Below are positions 53,776 through 62,403 of a stretch of DNA of 64,000 nt, piece by piece (position 1 is the stretch's first letter; every line of letters begins with the position of its first letter). The stretch is taken from contig QHVB01000025.1 of the NCBI GenBank assembly GCA_003222195.1, forward strand, positions 372,001 to 436,000, written 5' to 3'. The translations under genes were made by a program, and so were the position numbers. The notes under the pieces are model-generated. The model was not told the DNA's origin, searched no databases, and worked only from the letters and a program-made list of their open reading frames with translations. The stretch is from Gemmatimonadota bacterium. GTDB lineage: Bacteria > Gemmatimonadota > Gemmatimonadetes > Gemmatimonadales > GWC2-71-9.

Positions 53776-53803
53776 TTGACACCCCTTCGTTCGCGGCTAT
53801 ATC
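53776..53803 (+). promoter_or_regulatory. promoter of the sigma/anti-sigma/CHAT/RCC1 operon
   Basis: Perfect TTGACA (53776-53781), 16-bp spacer, TATATC (53798-53803); the GTG at 53828 is 24 nt downstream, with GAGG as a weak ribosome binding site. It looks like a housekeeping promoter rather than an autoregulated ECF promoter. Confidence 0.7.
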
Positions 53804-53827
53804 CGCCTCACCCCCTCGAGGCCGGCC

Positions 53828-54613
53828 GTGGACGATTGGGTCGCCGAGTTGCAGCGGGACAGGTTCGACGCCGCATGGGACCTGTTCCTCGATCGGTACC
53901 GGCGTCTCATCTTCGCAGCGATCCGGCATTACGCCCAGGATTACGACGATGTGATGGACGTGTTCGCGCGCGCGTGCGAGGCGCTGCGCGCGGACGATCT
54001 CCGGCGGCTGCGGTCCTGGGTCGAGCAGCCCGAGCATCGTGCCCGGTTCTCCACCTGGCTCGTCACGGTCGTTCGCCACCTCACCGTCGATTGGTTTCGC
54101 CACCGCGATGGCCGCCGCCGACTGTCCGTCGTTGCCGAGGGACTGCCGCCACTGCGCCGCCGAATCTTCGAGCTCGTCTTCCTGGATCGGCGCAGTCACA
54201 TCGAAGCGTACGAGCTGATCCACGCCGGCGAGGCGCCCACCCTCACGTTTCGGGAATTCCTCAGCGAACTGCGCGCGACCTATCACGCGGTCTCGACGGG
54301 CCGGCGCGGACAGGTCCTCCGCGATCTCGCTCCCGCGTCAGAGGCTGTAGAAGATCTCCCGGCCGATCCCGCCGGTCCGAGCGCGACGGGCGTCGCTGAA
54401 CAGAGTCGACTGCTCGAGCGCGCGCTGGCCATGCTCACTCCAGACGATCGCCTCATCGTGGAGCTGTACGTCCTAGAGGAGCTTCCCGCGGAAACGGTCG
54501 CCAAGGTCCTCGGGCTAGCGAACGCGAAAGCGGTTTACAACCGGTCGTACCGGGCGTTGTCGCTGGTGCGTGAGCAGCTGGAACGCGCCGGCGTGCGGCG
54601 GGAGGACCTGTGA
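53828..54613 (+). CDS. ECF-like sigma-70 family factor with long inter-domain linker
   Basis: A 261-aa sigma factor. Region 2 (about 15-95): FDAAWDLFLDRYRRLIFAAI, DDVMDVFARACEAL and FSTWLVTVVRHLTVDWFRHR; region 4 (about 200-255): LTPDDRLIVELYVLEELPAE and an HTH around TVAKVLGLANAKAVYNRSYR. Between them lies a ~100-residue helical segment, much longer than in standard ECF factors (~190 aa total). GTG start. The anti-sigma gene overlaps its stop by 4 nt, so it is probably held at the membrane until a signal arrives. Confidence 0.85.
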   Translation: MDDWVAELQRDRFDAAWDLFLDRYRRLIFAAIRHYAQDYDDVMDVFARACEALRADDLRRLRSWVEQPEHRARFSTWLVTVVRHLTVDWFRHRDGRRRLSVVAEGLPPLRRRIFELVFLDRRSHIEAYELIHAGEAPTLTFREFLSELRATYHAVSTGRRGQVLRDLAPASEAVEDLPADPAGPSATGVAEQSRLLERALAMLTPDDRLIVELYVLEELPAETVAKVLGLANAKAVYNRSYRALSLVREQLERAGVRREDL

Positions 54614-55299
54614 GCAGTCGGGACCCAGAGGACCGTCTCATGATGCCTGACGAACCCTTCGAGGAGCTGAAGCGCGTGCTCGATACCCGGGTGCGGTCTG
54701 AAGCGCCAACACCGGACTGCCTGCAGGACGATGTCATCGCGGCGTTCGCGGAAGGCTCGCTCGCGCCGGACCTGAGAGCAACGGTGCTCCCACACATCGC
54801 GACGTGCGTGCGGTGCCGGGGGGCGGTGGCGTCGGTAGCGAGAGCGCTCGCCGATCCCGCGGTCGCCCGAGAGCTTGTCGTTTCTCCGACCGACCGCCGC
54901 TGGTACCGCATCGCTGTGCCGCTTGCCGCCGCTGCGGTCCTGCTCCTCCTGCTTGCATCCCCTGGGGCCGACCGGTCGCCCGGACACAGGGGACCGCCAC
55001 CGCCGCCGTCGTCAACGACGCCCGTTCCGCGATCGCCGCTGGGCCTGGTCGCCGCTGTTCGCGATCTCCGTTGGAGCCCGGTCGCGGGGGCGGACCGATA
55101 TCGCGTGACGGTGTTCGACGCCACGGGTGGCGTCGTGTACGCGGCCGAAGCCCCCGATACCGTCATCGCCCTCCCCGATTCTGTCACGCTCGTCCCGGGC
55201 ACTGCGTATCTGTGGAAGGTGGACGCCCGCACCGGCTTTGATCGGTGGGCGACGTCGGAGTTGACGGAATTCCGCGTCGCGGAACCGCGGCGGCGATGA
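54610..55299 (+). CDS. membrane anti-sigma factor with zinc-binding motif and periplasmic Fn3-like domain
   Basis: A 229-aa protein. N-terminal zinc anti-sigma motif: Cys in TPDCLQDDV, then HIATCVRC (His-x3-Cys-x2-Cys). One membrane helix (about 99-117, YRIAVPLAAAAVLLLLLAS), a Pro-rich linker, then a ~75-residue beta-rich domain (LRWSPVAGADRYRVTVFDA, AYLWKVDART) of the Fn3/Ig type outside. The GTG start and ATGA stop overlap both neighbours. It likely sequesters the preceding sigma and senses the periplasm. Confidence 0.82.
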   Translation: MSSRDPEDRLMMPDEPFEELKRVLDTRVRSEAPTPDCLQDDVIAAFAEGSLAPDLRATVLPHIATCVRCRGAVASVARALADPAVARELVVSPTDRRWYRIAVPLAAAAVLLLLLASPGADRSPGHRGPPPPPSSTTPVPRSPLGLVAAVRDLRWSPVAGADRYRVTVFDATGGVVYAAEAPDTVIALPDSVTLVPGTAYLWKVDARTGFDRWATSELTEFRVAEPRRR

Positions 55300-58200
55300 T
55301 CGTCGCTGGGCTTGGGGGTCTCCTCGCTGTTTTGCAATCGCCTGCCTCCGATTCCCTCCGACTGCTCGCTCGCAGCCTACCCCAGACCTCGCTCGTCCTC
55401 GAAGTGCGGCAGCGGCCGCTCGCGGTGCGCGACGCCGTCACCGAGTCGCTGCGGCGCGGGGAGCTGGATGCCGCGGGAAAGATCGCCGCGGCGTACGCGC
55501 TGGCGTGGCGCGACTCGTTTCTGGTGCGCGAGGTTGCGCGCTTTGTCGCGTGGCCGGTGGCGCGACGATCGGCGAAGGTGGCCGTCGACTCCATGCGGCG
55601 GGTGGGCATCAAAGCGTTTGGAGCAGAGGGCCCGCATGCCGCGGTCCTGCTCTGGCAGCGCGCGCTCACGCGCGCAGCGACGAACGGCGACTCGGCGGGA
55701 ATGGCGGCGCTGCTGGGCAACATCGGGGCAGGGTTGCTCGAGGACGGCCTGCTCGACAGTGCGACCACGTACCTCGAACGGGCTCGGGCGCTGGCCGTGG
55801 CGATCGGTGACCTCCGCGTCGAGGCGAATGCCGTTGGGGCCCTGGCCGGCGCACACGAAGAGCGGGGTGATCTCTCAGTAGCGCGCGACGACTACGCCCA
55901 GTCGCTGGCGCTGCGCGACCGCATCGGGGACACGCGGGGCACCGCGGCGGATCACAACAATCTCGGTCTGCTGGTGCAACGGCTCGGTGATCTCGAGGAA
56001 GCGCGGCGGCAGTTCGACACGGCACTGGCGCTCAATCGTCGCGACGGTCGCGACGACGTCGCGGCGACGAACCTGGTCAACCTCGCCGGTCTCGCGAGTC
56101 TCGCCGGAGAGTTCACGCGCGCGGAAGCGCTGTACCGCGACGCCCTCGCGACCTGGCGGGCCCACGAGTCGTGGGCCGATGCCGCGGTCGCGCTCCACGG
56201 ACTCGGCCAGCTCGAGCTGCGCCGCGGCGATTACCCGGCCGCTCGGATGGCGCTGCGCGAGGCGCTCGGGATCTACGCCCGCACCGGGCCTATAGCGGAG
56301 GAGCTGGGTGTGCGGCGCGATCTCGCGGGAGCGCTGGCGGCTGCGGGTGATTTGCAGGGTGCTCGCGACGAACTGAGTCGCGCGCAGCGCCGGGCCGATT
56401 CCACGCGGGCGCCGCCCGGCGCGCGGGCGGGCATCGCGCTGGCCCGCGCGGATCTGGCCTTCGAGTTGAACACGTTGGCCGAGGCGCAGCGCTTGTACGC
56501 GCGCGCGGAGGCGCTGTATCGACTGGGGGCCGAGCCAGTCGGGGAGGCGGCAGCGCAGGAGGGGCGCGCCTTACTGCTGCTGGCGCGGGACGACGCGATC
56601 CACGCCCAGTCGCTACTGGAAACCGCGCTGCGCACGCAGGTGGGAGCGGGAAGCGTGCGCTCCGCTGCTCTGACGCGCGTCTCGCTGGGGCGAGCGGTCA
56701 TGGCGCGTGGCGATACCGCCGCGGCTCGCGGTCATCTGGCGCGAGCAGCGGGCGATCTTGCGCGGGGTGGCGATCCGGTGGCGAGCGCGGCGGCGCTCGG
56801 CGAGTGGGCAGCGCTCGAAGCGCACGCGGGCGCGCCCATCGCCGCCGACTCTCTCTACCGCGCAGCGCTCGACCGACTCGGCGACCGCATCGCGCCGGAA
56901 GTCGCCTGGCAGCTGCATGCAGGCTGGGCGAGCGTGCTGCGCAGCCAGGGCGCGAGCGATCCGGCCGCGCGTGAGCTGCGCAGCGCGCTCACGGAGCTCG
57001 AGCGCCCCAGCCGCTCGCTCGTCCTGCCGGAGCGGCGCTCGGCGTTTCTCGCCGACAAGTGGGACGTGTACGCGCAACTCGCGCTCGTCGAGCGGGACCG
57101 CGGCCGCGTGGGAGCGGCGTTCGAGGCGAGCGAGCGGCTGCGGGCGCGCGAGATGCTGGAGTTGCTCGCACGGGGCCGCATCACGAGCCCGGCCGACACG
57201 GCCGAGGACGTCGTCGCTCGGGAGCAGGACCTGCGCCGCCGCATCGGCGAGCTGACGTACGACTTGGAGAATGCGGAGGCCTCCGACCAGACGCTCCGTG
57301 GATCCGACGTGGCGCTCAACGCCAGCACCACGCGCGAGTCGCTGCTGCGCGCACAAGAGACCTATGCCGACCTTCTGCTCGAAGCGCGCGAGCGTGTGCC
57401 CCGGCATGCTGCCCTGGTCGTGCCAGAAGTCGCCACTTGGCAGACCGTGGCGCGACGACTCGCGCCGCAGTCCGGGTTCATCGAGTACCTCGTGAGCGAG
57501 TCGGCGACGCTCGCCTTCGTCGTGACCCGCGATACGATCGCCGTATTGGATCTTGGCACACGACGGCAGGAACTCCGGCGACTCGTCGACTTCACTCGCG
57601 CGGTCCTCACGCCGCGCGGCGATTCCCTGTGGCGCGCGCCACTGCGACGTCTTTACGCCGCGCTGATCGCGCCGATCGTGCAGACGGGACTGGTCGCCGG
57701 CAAGACGAAATTAGTCCTCGTTCCCCACGCCGAGCTGCAGTACCTGCCATTTGCGGCGTTGATGGATAGCTCCGGTCATTTTCTCGTCGAGCGTTACGAT
57801 CTGGCGATGACGCCTTCTGCGTCGGTCTGGATCGCGCTCGGTGATCGACCGGCCGAGCCTTCTGACGGCGGTGTGTTGGCCTTCGCGCCCCAGGCCGCCA
57901 CTCTGCCCGGGTCGAGTCAGGAAGTGGCGGCGATTCGACGTCTCGCCGGTGCGGATGCCCAGGTCCTGAGCGGCAGCGCCGCGACGGAGTCGGCATTTCG
58001 TCGGCTCGCTCCCACCCGGCGTGTACTGCACCTCGCGACCTACGGCGTCCTCAACAAGCAAAATCCGCTGTTTTCGTTCGTGAAGCTCGCGGCTGAAGGC
58101 GCCGAGGACGGGCGTCTCGAGGTGCACGAGGTGTTTGGTCTGCACCTGGCGGCGGACCTGGTCGTGTTGTCAGCCTGTCAGACCGGGTTGGCGTCGGGTG

Positions 58201-58466
58201 CGCTGGCCGATGTCCCTGCGGGCGACGATTGGGTTGGTCTCACGCGCGCGTTTCTGCATGCTGGAGCCCGGCAGGTGGTGGCGACGCTGTGGCCCGTGGA
58301 TGACTGGGCGACGGCTGCGCTGATGGACCGGTTTTATGGAGTCGGCGATGTCGCGGCCGAGCCGGCGGGCGCGCTCGCTGAGGCACAGCGGGCGCTGATC
58401 AAGATGCCGGCGACGGCGCATCCGTTCTACTGGGCGGGGTTTGTGAGCACGGGGGGCGCGCGGTGA
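55296..58466 (+). CDS. TPR-CHAT domain protein with altered catalytic site
   Basis: A 1056-aa protein. N-terminal hydrophobic segment MIVAGLGGLLAVLQS fits a signal peptide, so export is likely. About 12 TPR-like repeats (roughly 120-580; for example TAADHNNLGLLVQRLGDLEE) lead to a helical stretch and a C-terminal CHAT domain (about 720-1056): KLVLVPHAELQYLPFAAL, HLATYGVLN (912-920), LVVLSACQTG (nucleophile Cys961) and VVATLWPVDDWATAALMDRF. CHAT proteases normally have His-Gly in HLATHG; here Tyr916 replaces that His, so protease activity may be lost or use His912. The ATG overlaps the anti-sigma stop. Confidence 0.88.
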   Translation: MIVAGLGGLLAVLQSPASDSLRLLARSLPQTSLVLEVRQRPLAVRDAVTESLRRGELDAAGKIAAAYALAWRDSFLVREVARFVAWPVARRSAKVAVDSMRRVGIKAFGAEGPHAAVLLWQRALTRAATNGDSAGMAALLGNIGAGLLEDGLLDSATTYLERARALAVAIGDLRVEANAVGALAGAHEERGDLSVARDDYAQSLALRDRIGDTRGTAADHNNLGLLVQRLGDLEEARRQFDTALALNRRDGRDDVAATNLVNLAGLASLAGEFTRAEALYRDALATWRAHESWADAAVALHGLGQLELRRGDYPAARMALREALGIYARTGPIAEELGVRRDLAGALAAAGDLQGARDELSRAQRRADSTRAPPGARAGIALARADLAFELNTLAEAQRLYARAEALYRLGAEPVGEAAAQEGRALLLLARDDAIHAQSLLETALRTQVGAGSVRSAALTRVSLGRAVMARGDTAAARGHLARAAGDLARGGDPVASAAALGEWAALEAHAGAPIAADSLYRAALDRLGDRIAPEVAWQLHAGWASVLRSQGASDPAARELRSALTELERPSRSLVLPERRSAFLADKWDVYAQLALVERDRGRVGAAFEASERLRAREMLELLARGRITSPADTAEDVVAREQDLRRRIGELTYDLENAEASDQTLRGSDVALNASTTRESLLRAQETYADLLLEARERVPRHAALVVPEVATWQTVARRLAPQSGFIEYLVSESATLAFVVTRDTIAVLDLGTRRQELRRLVDFTRAVLTPRGDSLWRAPLRRLYAALIAPIVQTGLVAGKTKLVLVPHAELQYLPFAALMDSSGHFLVERYDLAMTPSASVWIALGDRPAEPSDGGVLAFAPQAATLPGSSQEVAAIRRLAGADAQVLSGSAATESAFRRLAPTRRVLHLATYGVLNKQNPLFSFVKLAAEGAEDGRLEVHEVFGLHLAADLVVLSACQTGLASGALADVPAGDDWVGLTRAFLHAGARQVVATLWPVDDWATAALMDRFYGVGDVAAEPAGALAEAQRALIKMPATAHPFYWAGFVSTGGAR

Positions 58467-60304
58467 GCAAGCACGAATCGCTCGTCCGTCGAACGGGAGA
58501 GTCACGAAACGAGGCCGTTGTGCACTCGTACCTGAAAAACCGCTGTGTCGTGCTGATTCCCGCCCTCCTCGCGTGGACCACTGCCTGCGTGGAGAGCAGT
58601 GGGCCGAAGCAGACGCCAGTCGACACCCTTCCCAACATCGCTGGGCTCACGGTCTCGGCGCCCGTTCCGGTGCCTGCGGGCAGCGCTCATGCGTCCGCCG
58701 CTGTCGTGTCTGTCGACGAGAGTGTGGTCTACATCTCCTTGGCTCCCGGCTCAGTGCCTATGGGCATCAAGGCCACCGTCCGCGCGCTCTCGACTGGCGA
58801 CTCGGTCACCACTGCGGTTGTGAACGGCGGCTTCGATCCGGTTGCCATCTCTGCGAGCATCGGCGATACGATCGCGGTAGCCATCGAACGCTTCGGCTTC
58901 GCGGACCCGATCCGCGCGCTACAAGTCGTCGCAGCGAGACGCGCGCCGGTCGTGGTGCGCACTGACCCGCCGCCGCAAAAGAGGGATGTACCGCTGAACA
59001 GCGTCATGGTAGTCGTGTTCAGCACCCCGCTTGACCCCGCCACGTTGACCACCGGATCGGTTCAGCTCTGGCGCGATGCGACCCCGGTCGCGGGAACGGT
59101 GCGGTTCGCGGACGCCCTGCAGCTCATAGTCGAGTTTCAGCCGCTGAACGTCCTCGATCCTCAGACCGCGTACCATCTCGTCGTCACCCAGAGCATCCGG
59201 GATGTGAACGGTATCGGACTCGAATCGCCCGTTGCTGTGCCGTTTACCACCGCGACCGGTGGGTCAGCCGCGGGCTTGGCGTTCGCTAGCGTAACCGCGG
59301 GGGGCCTGGACGATGCGACAATATCATATGGACTGGCTTTTGGGCATACCTGCGCCCTCACGACAGACGGGGCGGCCTACTGCTGGGGATGGAACGGGTA
59401 CGGACAGCTCGGCGATGGATCGACCACCGACCAATCGGTGCCCATTGCCGTAACCGGTGGCCTCGCGTTCTCGTCGGTCGTCGCCCGCGGAGCGAGGACC
59501 TGCGGCCTCACACCCCGCGGCGCGGCGTTCTGCTGGGGAGGCCAGCCCGTGCTCCAAAGCGACATGAGTTTCGTCGCGCTCGCGGCTGGCGGTTATCACG
59601 ACTGCGGCCTCACCACGGGCGGAGAGGCGTATTGCTGGGGTGAGAACTACTCCGGTCAGCTTGGCAACGGCCGGTCCGGGCCACACCTCGGCAGTGATGC
59701 GGGCTTCGTAAGCGGGGGTCTCGATTTCGTCGCGTTGACGGCCGGGACGTATCACACCTGCGGTCTCGACACAACGGGAGCGGCGTACTGCTGGGGTGAC
59801 AATTTCTACGGCGAGCTCGGCGACGGTTCGAGCAGAGACAGCTCGATTGTCCCGGTGCCCGTAAGCCGTGGGCGCAATTTCGTTGCGCTCCAGGCCGGTT
59901 ACTACCATACGTGTGCCCTCACGGACGCGGGGGCAGCGTACTGCTGGGGGGAATTCTTCGGCTCCGATCCCGTTCTCGTTTCCGCTGGACTTAGCTTCGT
60001 CGCGCTGACTGCCGGGGAGTACCACACCTGCGCGCTCACCGCGGAGGGGGCAGCGTACTGCTGGGGGCGCAACGCACGCGGTCAACTGGGGGACGGCTCC
60101 AACACCGACGCCGCCGTTCCCGTTGCCGTGGCTGGCGGGTTGACTTTTAGTTCGGTCAGCGCGGGGAAGGCGCACACGTGCGGTGTGGCGACGACCGGGA
60201 TCGTCTATTGTTGGGGCGCCAACACCTTCGGGCAACTTGGAAACGGTGCGTTGGGGGTTGGCGTCAGTAGCAGCCGGCCTGTGAAGGTTGCTGGGCAGCC
60301 GTGA
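58463..60304 (+). CDS. RCC1-repeat lipoprotein with Ig-like N-terminal domain
   Basis: A 613-aa protein from the GTG overlapping the CHAT stop; a GTG at 58520 preceded by ACGAGG gives a cleaner signal peptide ending LLAWTTAC, whose Cys would be lipidated. About 60-270 are beta-rich, including a Big_5-like module (NSVMVVVFSTPLDPATLTTG). The C-terminal ~330 residues hold seven RCC1-type blades, most with HTCALT...AAYCWG and GQLGDGS. Each blade carries two cysteines about 10 residues apart. Propeller lipoproteins of this type are usually surface or outer-membrane proteins; here the operon suggests a part of an envelope signalling system. Confidence 0.85.
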   Translation: MSKHESLVRRTGESRNEAVVHSYLKNRCVVLIPALLAWTTACVESSGPKQTPVDTLPNIAGLTVSAPVPVPAGSAHASAAVVSVDESVVYISLAPGSVPMGIKATVRALSTGDSVTTAVVNGGFDPVAISASIGDTIAVAIERFGFADPIRALQVVAARRAPVVVRTDPPPQKRDVPLNSVMVVVFSTPLDPATLTTGSVQLWRDATPVAGTVRFADALQLIVEFQPLNVLDPQTAYHLVVTQSIRDVNGIGLESPVAVPFTTATGGSAAGLAFASVTAGGLDDATISYGLAFGHTCALTTDGAAYCWGWNGYGQLGDGSTTDQSVPIAVTGGLAFSSVVARGARTCGLTPRGAAFCWGGQPVLQSDMSFVALAAGGYHDCGLTTGGEAYCWGENYSGQLGNGRSGPHLGSDAGFVSGGLDFVALTAGTYHTCGLDTTGAAYCWGDNFYGELGDGSSRDSSIVPVPVSRGRNFVALQAGYYHTCALTDAGAAYCWGEFFGSDPVLVSAGLSFVALTAGEYHTCALTAEGAAYCWGRNARGQLGDGSNTDAAVPVAVAGGLTFSSVSAGKAHTCGVATTGIVYCWGANTFGQLGNGALGVGVSSSRPVKVAGQP

Positions 60305-60389: not shown

Positions 60390-60411
60390 AAAAAAGGACG
60401 CCTATACGTCC
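60390..60411 (-). terminator. intrinsic terminator overlapping the PP2C stop codon
   Basis: On the minus strand GGACG (60411-60407), loop TATAGG, CGTCC (60400-60396), then six T (60395-60390). The TAG stop of the phosphatase gene is in the loop. Confidence 0.7.
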
Positions 60412-61295
60412 CGGCGTTTGTTCTTGAGCCGCCCGATCACGACGGTCACGTTGTCTTCACCGCCGCGATCGAGCGCGAGCTGGATCAGCCGCCGACAGGA
60501 CTCCGGTGCCGTGCGGATCGCCTGGAGCTCGGCCTCGATCTCCTCATCTCGCACATGGCGGCTAAGGCCGTCGGTGCAGAGCAGCACGACATCGTCCCAG
60601 CGACAGTCGGTGGCGTGGATGCGCGGCGTCATGTCGCGTCCGCCGAGGGCGCTCGCGAGTCTGCCGCGGAGTGGGGAACGGCGCGCCTCCGTCTCGGTCA
60701 GGGCGCCCTGTTCGACCAGCGCGTGTGCGATCGTCTGGTCCTCGGTCATGCGCTCGAGCCGGCCGTCCCGCAACCGATAGCAGCGGCTGTCGCCCACCTG
60801 GATCACGTAGGCGTGCGGCCAGAGCGCAGCGATCATGGTGAGCGTGGTCGCCCCGCCGTGCCCGCCGTATTCCTTATTTCCTTCCTCGACCAGTACCTCG
60901 TGGCTCTTGAGCGCCGATTTCTCGAGCTCTGAGACGAAGATCGCTTCGTTGTTGGAGTCGAGCCGGCGATACAGATCCATCAGGTGCGTGACGTGGTGCG
61001 CGATGGTCTTGACCACGGTGCCACTCGCCGCCTGGCCGTCGGGCCGGCCGCCCACGCCGTCGGCCACGAGGAGGATATATCCCCGCGACTCGCTGATCAG
61101 GGTGGTGATGTCCTCGGGAGGCAGGCTCGACTGGTGCTTGTGCAGGCTCGCGATGAGAAACTGATCCTGATTGTCCGAGCGCACGCGGCCATGATCGCTC
61201 AGGCCGAATACATCGATGTCGGTCGACGTCGGGCGCGGTTCGGCGGCAGCGGGCGAGAAGGAGACCTGTCTCGGCTCAGACATCGCCGGAAACAT
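60402..61295 (-). CDS. PP2C-type Ser/Thr protein phosphatase
   Basis: A 297-aa cytoplasmic metal-dependent phosphatase. Motifs: LSDHGRVRSDNQDQFLI, LLVADGVGGRPDGQAAS (metal Asp), VIQVGDSRCYRLRDGRL, MTEDQT, LCTDGLSRHV and GGEDNVTVVI. About 35 Pro/Ser-rich residues precede the domain, and residues ~50-75 contain an insertion relative to short Stp-like enzymes. AAGGGA precedes the ATG. A likely antagonist of Hanks-type kinases such as the one at 47132. Confidence 0.93.
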   Translation of the reverse strand: MFPAMSEPRQVSFSPAAAEPRPTSTDIDVFGLSDHGRVRSDNQDQFLIASLHKHQSSLPPEDITTLISESRGYILLVADGVGGRPDGQAASGTVVKTIAHHVTHLMDLYRRLDSNNEAIFVSELEKSALKSHEVLVEEGNKEYGGHGGATTLTMIAALWPHAYVIQVGDSRCYRLRDGRLERMTEDQTIAHALVEQGALTETEARRSPLRGRLASALGGRDMTPRIHATDCRWDDVVLLCTDGLSRHVRDEEIEAELQAIRTAPESCRRLIQLALDRGGEDNVTVVIGRLKNKRRDV

Positions 61296-61440
61296 GCTGT
61301 CCCTTGCGCGGGCGGCCAGCGTCGGTGGGGCAGCGTCCGGGGGGGGACGGCGTCTCGCCGAGGGCTCAGCTAACGGCCATCAAACGCTGCGCAAACGCAT
61401 AGAGCTCATGTTATCGGCTATCCCGCTCCCGGAGGAGCCG

Positions 61441-62403
61441 ATGACCAGCGTACGTCGCTTTTGTAGAGCTGTTGCCCCGCTCATTGTATTGCTCGCCTGC
61501 CGGCCCGAATCTGACTCTATCGTTTCCGGACTTCTGGCCGATCGCTTCGCCAACTCCGAGTGGTCCGACCCGGTGAATCTCGGTCCCGTCGTGAACTCGA
61601 GCGCCCTCGACGCCAACGCCGGCCTCTCGTCCGACGCGCATACGCTCTTCTTCGTCTCGACACGCACCGGCGGTCTCGGCAACCTCGATATCTGGATGTC
61701 GCATCGCCGCTGTCTGGCGTGCGATTGGGAAGCCCCGGTGAATCTCGGTGCGCCGATCAACAGCGACGCGATCGACGCCGCCCCGACGATGTCTGACGAC
61801 GGCCGCCTCCTGTTCTTCTATAGTGCGCGCGCCGGTGGTTTCGGCCTCGGCGACGTTTACGTCTCCCATCGCGTGAGCACCGGCGCGGACGGGGACGTCT
61901 GGGCCCCTCCGGTGAACCTCGGACCGGATGTGAATACGGCGGCCAACGAGCAGGGTACGTTTTACGTGCATGAGCCGGGAGAGCCGAACGCCTTCGTGTA
62001 CTTTAATCGACCGACCGCCGGCGGCAGCATCGACGTCTATCGAGTCGCGGTGTCGAATGACGGCGACGCGCTCGGCCCTGCGGTCCTCGTCCCGGAGTTG
62101 AGCGACCCGACCACGTTCGACCAAAAAGTGGCGGTGAGCGCGGACGGTCACGAGCTGCTGCTGTCCTCGATGCGGGCGGGAGGCTTCGGCAACTTCGACA
62201 TCTGGCGCTTCACCCGCCAGTCCGCCCAAGACCCCTGGTCGAATCCAACCCATTTGGACGCGCCGATCAACACTCCGGACGTCGATTCGCAACCGCTGCT
62301 CTCGCGCGACGGGCGCACACTAATCTTCACGTCCATTCGCGCCGGCGGACACGGCGCGCAAGACCTCTGGATGTCGACGCGGAGGCCGAGTCCCAATAGC
62401 TAG
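61441..62403 (+). CDS. lipoprotein with PD40/TolB-like beta-propeller repeats
   Basis: A 320-aa predicted lipoprotein: AVAPLIVLLAC signal with lipobox cysteine near residue 19. Five or six repeats of the PD40 type: SSDAHTLFFVSTRTGGLGN, MSDDGRLLFFYSARAGGFG, SADGHELLLSSMRAGGFGNF, SRDGRTLIFTSIRAGGHG. The ATG at 61441 is chosen for GGAGGAG 4 nt upstream and the signal peptide; upstream in-frame codons overlap the divergent phosphatase gene. Repeats like these occur in surface proteins that bind peptidoglycan or partners; no specific role visible. Confidence 0.82.
   Translation: MTSVRRFCRAVAPLIVLLACRPESDSIVSGLLADRFANSEWSDPVNLGPVVNSSALDANAGLSSDAHTLFFVSTRTGGLGNLDIWMSHRRCLACDWEAPVNLGAPINSDAIDAAPTMSDDGRLLFFYSARAGGFGLGDVYVSHRVSTGADGDVWAPPVNLGPDVNTAANEQGTFYVHEPGEPNAFVYFNRPTAGGSIDVYRVAVSNDGDALGPAVLVPELSDPTTFDQKVAVSADGHELLLSSMRAGGFGNFDIWRFTRQSAQDPWSNPTHLDAPINTPDVDSQPLLSRDGRTLIFTSIRAGGHGAQDLWMSTRRPSPNS

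Follow-up and report, generated by a model that had tools for sequence, protein, structure and literature searches.

The window, that is, the whole stretch of DNA that we analyzed, comprises 64,000 nucleotides from a Gemmatimonadota bacterium (assembly GCA_003222195.1, contig QHVB01000025.1, positions 372,001 to 436,000 of the forward strand). According to the open reading frame (ORF) calls, it contains four genes, all on the + strand and joined by consecutive 4-nucleotide overlaps, that span 53828-60304. In order, they encode an extracytoplasmic function (ECF)-type sigma factor, a zinc-finger membrane anti-sigma factor, a TPR-CHAT protein and a lipoprotein with Big_5 and RCC1 domains, and the names of all four products are backed by Pfam and NCBIfam profile matches. 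On balance, we think that the operon probably encodes a sigma-factor switch of the extracytoplasmic type whose components are distributed over separate genes, and in which a surface propeller would act through a non-catalytic periplasmic TPR-CHAT protein on the anti-sigma. The features that we refer to are the following, in window coordinates.

53776..53804, + strand: promoter-like element TTGACA-N16-TATATCC, TTGACACCCCTTCGTTCGCGGCTATATCC, kept upstream of orthologous sigma genes
53828..54613, + strand: ECF-type sigma factor with region 2, a spacer of ~95 amino acids and region 4; GTG start; TIGR02937 1.3e-15, Sigma70_r4_2 8e-10, r2 5e-5
54610..55299, + strand: anti-sigma with a zf-HC2-type zinc site, one transmembrane span and an extracytoplasmic Ig/Fn3-like domain; GTG start, 4-nucleotide overlap with the sigma gene
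54793..54816, + strand: zinc-site motif of the anti-sigma, HIATCVRC in the sequence, kept in kin as HxxxCxxC
54910..54957, + strand: transmembrane helix of the anti-sigma, predicted from a hydropathy of 2.59 over 17 residues
55296..58466, + strand: TPR-CHAT protein, very probably exported, 1056 amino acids; CHAT 8e-63, TPR_12 2e-21; its ATG overlaps the TGA of the anti-sigma gene
55296..55346, + strand: short signal-peptide-like N-terminus of the TPR-CHAT protein, MIVAGLGGLLAVLQSPA, like the hydrophobic N-termini of its clade relatives
57636..58454, + strand: CHAT domain, residues 781-1053, PF12770
58041..58043, + strand: Tyr916, which takes the place of the catalytic His of CHAT proteases (H615 of Csx29), by alignment to 'LCHGE' of Csx29
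58176..58178, + strand: Cys961, which corresponds to the catalytic Cys of CHAT proteases (C658 of Csx29), invariant in 51/51 aligned proteins that cover the position
58520..60304, + strand: lipoprotein with a signal and lipobox TTAC, a conserved N-terminal domain, a Big_5 Ig-like domain and a seven-blade RCC1 propeller, by Pfam

Our searches covered 61 relatives, 102 genomes of the family and 395 sampled from the phylum, draft genomes with contig ends, and we read 54 loci. A related CHAT gene (E<=1e-80) is held by 36 of the 395 phylum genomes. Among the 45 loci with enough upstream sequence, a sigma gene lies upstream on the same strand in 43 and an anti-sigma gene in 44, and the CHAT gene of G005b is an orphan. 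Given these numbers, we reject chance gene order. The synteny search that the preliminary description of this DNA had proposed thus bears out its four-gene set, which recurs over the phylum Gemmatimonadota, and judged by gene order the four genes are a conserved unit. In several genomes the set is present in two to four copies. The window's genome has a second set (L003, contig C57:1-8000) in which two gene-4 lipoproteins follow each other, and which has a CHAT gene whose N-terminus is in another frame than the rest and may be frameshifted. In L124 (G112), ~3.3 kb of other genes lie between the anti-sigma and CHAT genes, some of them ending in GPGTVDIIVP. When plasmids were searched by tblastn with a sister-clade CHAT protein, the matches listed included only distant TPR-CHAT proteins of less than 28% identity, mostly cyanobacterial.

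The preliminary description had also placed a promoter before the operon, and comparison of the regions upstream of orthologous operons yielded the promoter-like element at 53776-53804; a generic promoter scan of the window found nothing. The motif TTGACR-N16-TATATCC also precedes the sigma gene in G008a, G005d, G024 (second sigma) and G035J, and in G071 it occurs with N17. In the 3.5-Mb genome of the window, the element has a single exact match and 2 sites in all at <=1 mismatch, and window shuffles give an expectation of 0 matches. A looser form has 16 matches over the 102 family genomes, and at 5 of these a sigma gene of the operon family follows directly.

The first two genes form an ECF sigma factor and class I (zinc-finger) anti-sigma pair: the sigma factor has regions 2 and 4, and its neighbor is a zinc-binding protein with a single membrane span. 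The Pfam match to sigma region 4 falls into two stretches, as if there were a degenerate extra region-4-like domain. In the window anti-sigma the zf-HC2 match is weak (0.0015, under the Pfam cut-off); it is above the cut-off in several homologues, and the HxxxCxxC motif and single membrane span were found in nearly all of them. An outside Fn3-like domain had been proposed for this protein. For the Fn3-like part we found a weak similarity in a relative (3mpc Fn3-like, E=0.04) and no Fn3 match by Pfam.

In a tree of 52 proteins, the window's clade and a sister clade are split at a Shimodaira-Hasegawa-like approximate likelihood ratio test (SH-aLRT) value of 100. For the TPR-CHAT gene of the window we prefer the ATG at 55296; the GTG at 55245, which would make it longer, is merely the mechanical first start. 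Signal peptides were judged by eye and no signal-peptide program was used. TPR-CHAT proteins of the window's clade have a short hydrophobic N-terminal stretch that in many cases ends in AQ or QSP, and most readable N-termini of the sister clade have lipoboxes (LAAC, LSGC, LAGC and others). In G022 (L060:5223-9548, - strand), the anti-sigma and TPR-CHAT are naturally fused in one 1442-amino-acid open frame, and at the junction the signal stretch is gone and an in-frame ATG, GTG or TTG start is absent. Because the fusion has one membrane span and its zinc domain is inside, its TPR-CHAT part is outside; the fusion also links anti-sigma and TPR-CHAT physically. Based on the signal-like N-termini, the sister-clade lipoboxes and this fusion, we reject a cytoplasmic CHAT protein and agree with the preliminary description that TPR-CHAT is very probably extracytoplasmic.

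The frame of the fourth gene is open from a GTG at 58463, which gives a GTGA overlap with the CHAT end at 58463-58466, and we prefer the GTG at 58520 as its start. The lipoprotein matches RCC1_2 (2e-57) and Big_5 (3e-14) and has seven CWG blades. Its N-terminal half (small domain and Big_5) is orthologous between operons, and 23 of 25 strong matches to the N-terminal domain, in 13 genomes, adjoin a CHAT gene of this family. The propeller lipoprotein, which the preliminary description had placed in the operon, is a real and recurring partner. The C-terminal part varies between RCC1 and PD40/TolB propellers. The sister clade also has lipoproteins in the gene-4 place, several with HAF or PQQ/BamB-type propellers. 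As relatives carry other propellers instead, we reject RCC1 as an essential sensor.

In an alternative that we consider unlikely, the switch would consist of sigma, anti-sigma and TPR-CHAT, and the propeller lipoprotein would be an output that the sigma factor produces, such as a surface adhesin or binding protein, rather than an input. Gene 4 closes the operon, has a freely changing propeller type and is sometimes duplicated in tandem (L041, L003), and one subclade is without its canonical form. However, gene 4 overlaps the CHAT stop at many loci and its N-terminal domain is found almost exclusively beside CHAT, which suggests a tight stoichiometric coupling of the two proteins. At L041:13167-19418, three RCC1 lipoprotein genes are in tandem behind CHAT.

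The preliminary description had left it open whether the TPR-CHAT protein relays the signal or cleaves the anti-sigma. Csx29, the CHAT protease of the type III-E craspase, has H615 and E617 in 'HGE' and C658, E659 and D661 in 'CET D', and the H615A/C658A double mutant is inactive (PMC10028731). The window protein has the catalytic Cys and lacks the catalytic His of the HG motif. Across the window's clade, the His position is occupied by Tyr (22), Phe (3), Ser (3), Ala (2) and His (1), with one protein not covering it, so that 30/31 are non-His; the Cys961-equivalent is kept in 31/31. The sister clade has His in 19/20 and Gln in one. Because the catalytic His is replaced in nearly all of its members, the window's clade is, to judge from the alignment, most likely catalytically dead by the known mechanism, and cleavage is not supported for the window copy, where we reject an active protease for the loss of His (Tyr916). 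A relay by a non-catalytic scaffold or pseudo-protease is likelier there. In the sister clade, whose His-Cys pair is intact, cleavage of the anti-sigma is possible.

The residues of the window's clade speak against a second alternative, which we regard as quite improbable, namely that the CHAT protein, once exported, would be catalytically active as a caspase-like site-1 protease and cut the anti-sigma upon a signal from the propeller lipoprotein. The intact pair in the sister clade, where CHAT is usually a lipoprotein and the anti-sigma gene adjoins, and the precedent of Csx29 cleaving the sigma inhibitor Csx30 (PMC10028731) speak for it, but with Tyr, Phe, Ser or Ala in place of His in the window's clade and the Csx29 double mutant inactive, we prefer a non-catalytic TPR-CHAT.

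The predicted fold of the TPR-CHAT protein matches separase, Csx29 and DdvA. The model has a predicted local distance difference test (pLDDT) score of 80.6 at full length and 83.1 for the CHAT half (48-row alignment); pLDDT is <50 at 915-949 and 959-989 of the full-length model, around the active site, and we do not argue active-site geometry from it. Membership in the CHAT family is supported by the PF12770 match and by a VIA Z of ~32 to Csx29 (32.6 for the CHAT half against 8eey). The match to DdvA has a Foldseek value of 4e-13 for the whole model and 6e-11 for the CHAT half, and VIA aligns 310 residues to DdvA 663-991 of 8rw5 (Z 24.0, root mean square deviation 3.6, 19% identity). The match is by fold alone, with no similarity to DdvA by sequence profile. 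The periplasmic domain of DdvA is, in a 2024 Sci Adv abstract, reportedly a TPR-CHAT with an incomplete His-Cys site.

DdvS-DdvA of Myxococcus xanthus (PDB 8rot, 8rw5) likewise pairs a sigma factor, in its case of the ECF type, with a transmembrane anti-sigma that has a CHAT-fold C-terminal region. DdvA is one polypeptide, whereas the window has the anti-sigma and the CHAT-fold extracytoplasmic region on two genes, fused only in G022/L060, and the propeller lipoprotein is an extra part relative to DdvS-DdvA. On the basis of the fold comparison, the window looks like a split, four-gene form of a DdvS-DdvA-type switch. The preliminary description found an exported CHAT protein wired to a sigma factor notable; this reason for surprise needs amending because DdvA, a transmembrane anti-sigma with a CHAT-fold region, already has a solved structure. 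Our literature search on CHAT with ECF or anti-sigma factors brought up only craspase papers.

CHAT proteins are common in immunity. A further alternative, that the module, like DdvS-DdvA, would regulate a programme of antiphage defence or conflict, is compatible with either of the mechanisms already described and is favored by the same fold of DdvA and by the control of an antiphage CBASS/CRISPR-Cas island by DdvS (PMC12288465), but we find it very doubtful, as PADLOC on the operon and four neighbors gave no clear defence protein, only generic TPR and phosphatase-type matches, and the absence of a second exact match to the promoter-like element in the genome means that no linked defence regulon is visible.

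The craspase also ties a TPR-CHAT protein (Csx29) to a pair of sigma inhibitor (Csx30) and sigma factor (CASP-sigma), but it works with Cas7-11, target RNA and an active His-Cys pair (PMC10028731), while the TPR-CHAT protein of the window has an export-like N-terminus and is without the His. Within 51-63 kb of the window, there is no ORF of the size of a Cas7-11 (gRAMP) partner, and the longest ORF is the CHAT gene. In FecI/FecR-type cell-surface signalling, too, a surface protein acts on an ECF sigma factor by way of a membrane anti-sigma. In the window, the surface component is instead the propeller lipoprotein, the TPR-CHAT protein intervenes as an extra part, and neither the ORFs nor Pfam gave a TonB-dependent transducer or receptor in the operon.

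We read from the sequence the order and conservation of the genes, their domains, the loss of His, the fusion and the promoter-like element; the steps of the switch are our proposal. At the inner membrane, the sigma factor would be held by the anti-sigma, a zinc-binding protein that has a single transmembrane helix and, outside, an Ig-like domain. The exported TPR-CHAT protein, in the window's clade most likely a non-catalytic scaffold (pseudo-protease), would bind the outside part of the anti-sigma, perhaps directly, and set its state. Its lipid and its Ig-like stalk would anchor the propeller lipoprotein in the envelope, and the propeller may serve as an exchangeable head that reads a ligand or binds a partner. 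Ligand binding would then alter the complex of lipoprotein, TPR-CHAT and anti-sigma, the anti-sigma might be exposed to ordinary regulated proteolysis by housekeeping proteases, and the freed sigma factor could raise the expression of its own operon.

Several observations weigh against this proposal. The promoter-like element is as similar to a housekeeping sigma site as to an ECF site. The TPR-CHAT signal peptide is without the usual basic n-region. The subclade of G005b/c, G072 and G071/G066 has no canonical gene 4, having instead an orphan CHAT, an Fn3 lipoprotein or an RCC1-only lipoprotein, so gene 4 is not strictly required. The invariant His912 lies four residues ahead of Tyr916 and may make an unorthodox active site. 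Lastly, G005c (L058:1-1638), a member of the His-less clade, has His again, with a different lipoprotein downstream; this lone His is one base change from Tyr.

More broadly, we tentatively suggest a phylum-wide class of envelope-signalling systems. In these, a separase/craspase-like TPR-CHAT protein outside the cytoplasm would couple exchangeable beta-propeller surface lipoproteins to dedicated sigma factors; ancestrally, this protein may have been a lipid-anchored active protease that cut the anti-sigma and that later became a pseudo-protease in one branch. The CHAT-anti-sigma link is more than an isolated peculiarity of DdvA and craspase: Gemmatimonadota have it repeatedly, encoded by split genes or by a natural fusion, in one clade with the His-Cys pair intact and in another without the His. 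The pair of clades turns CHAT signalling by cutting versus by binding into a testable question, and a conserved stalk with its exchangeable propeller is a candidate surface head for systems such as DdvA.

Downstream of the operon are a PP2C-type phosphatase gene (60402-61295, - strand) and a gene for a PVNLGP-type lipoprotein (61216-62403, + strand). In L058, L038 and L039, similar PVNLGP lipoproteins are likewise encoded behind CHAT.

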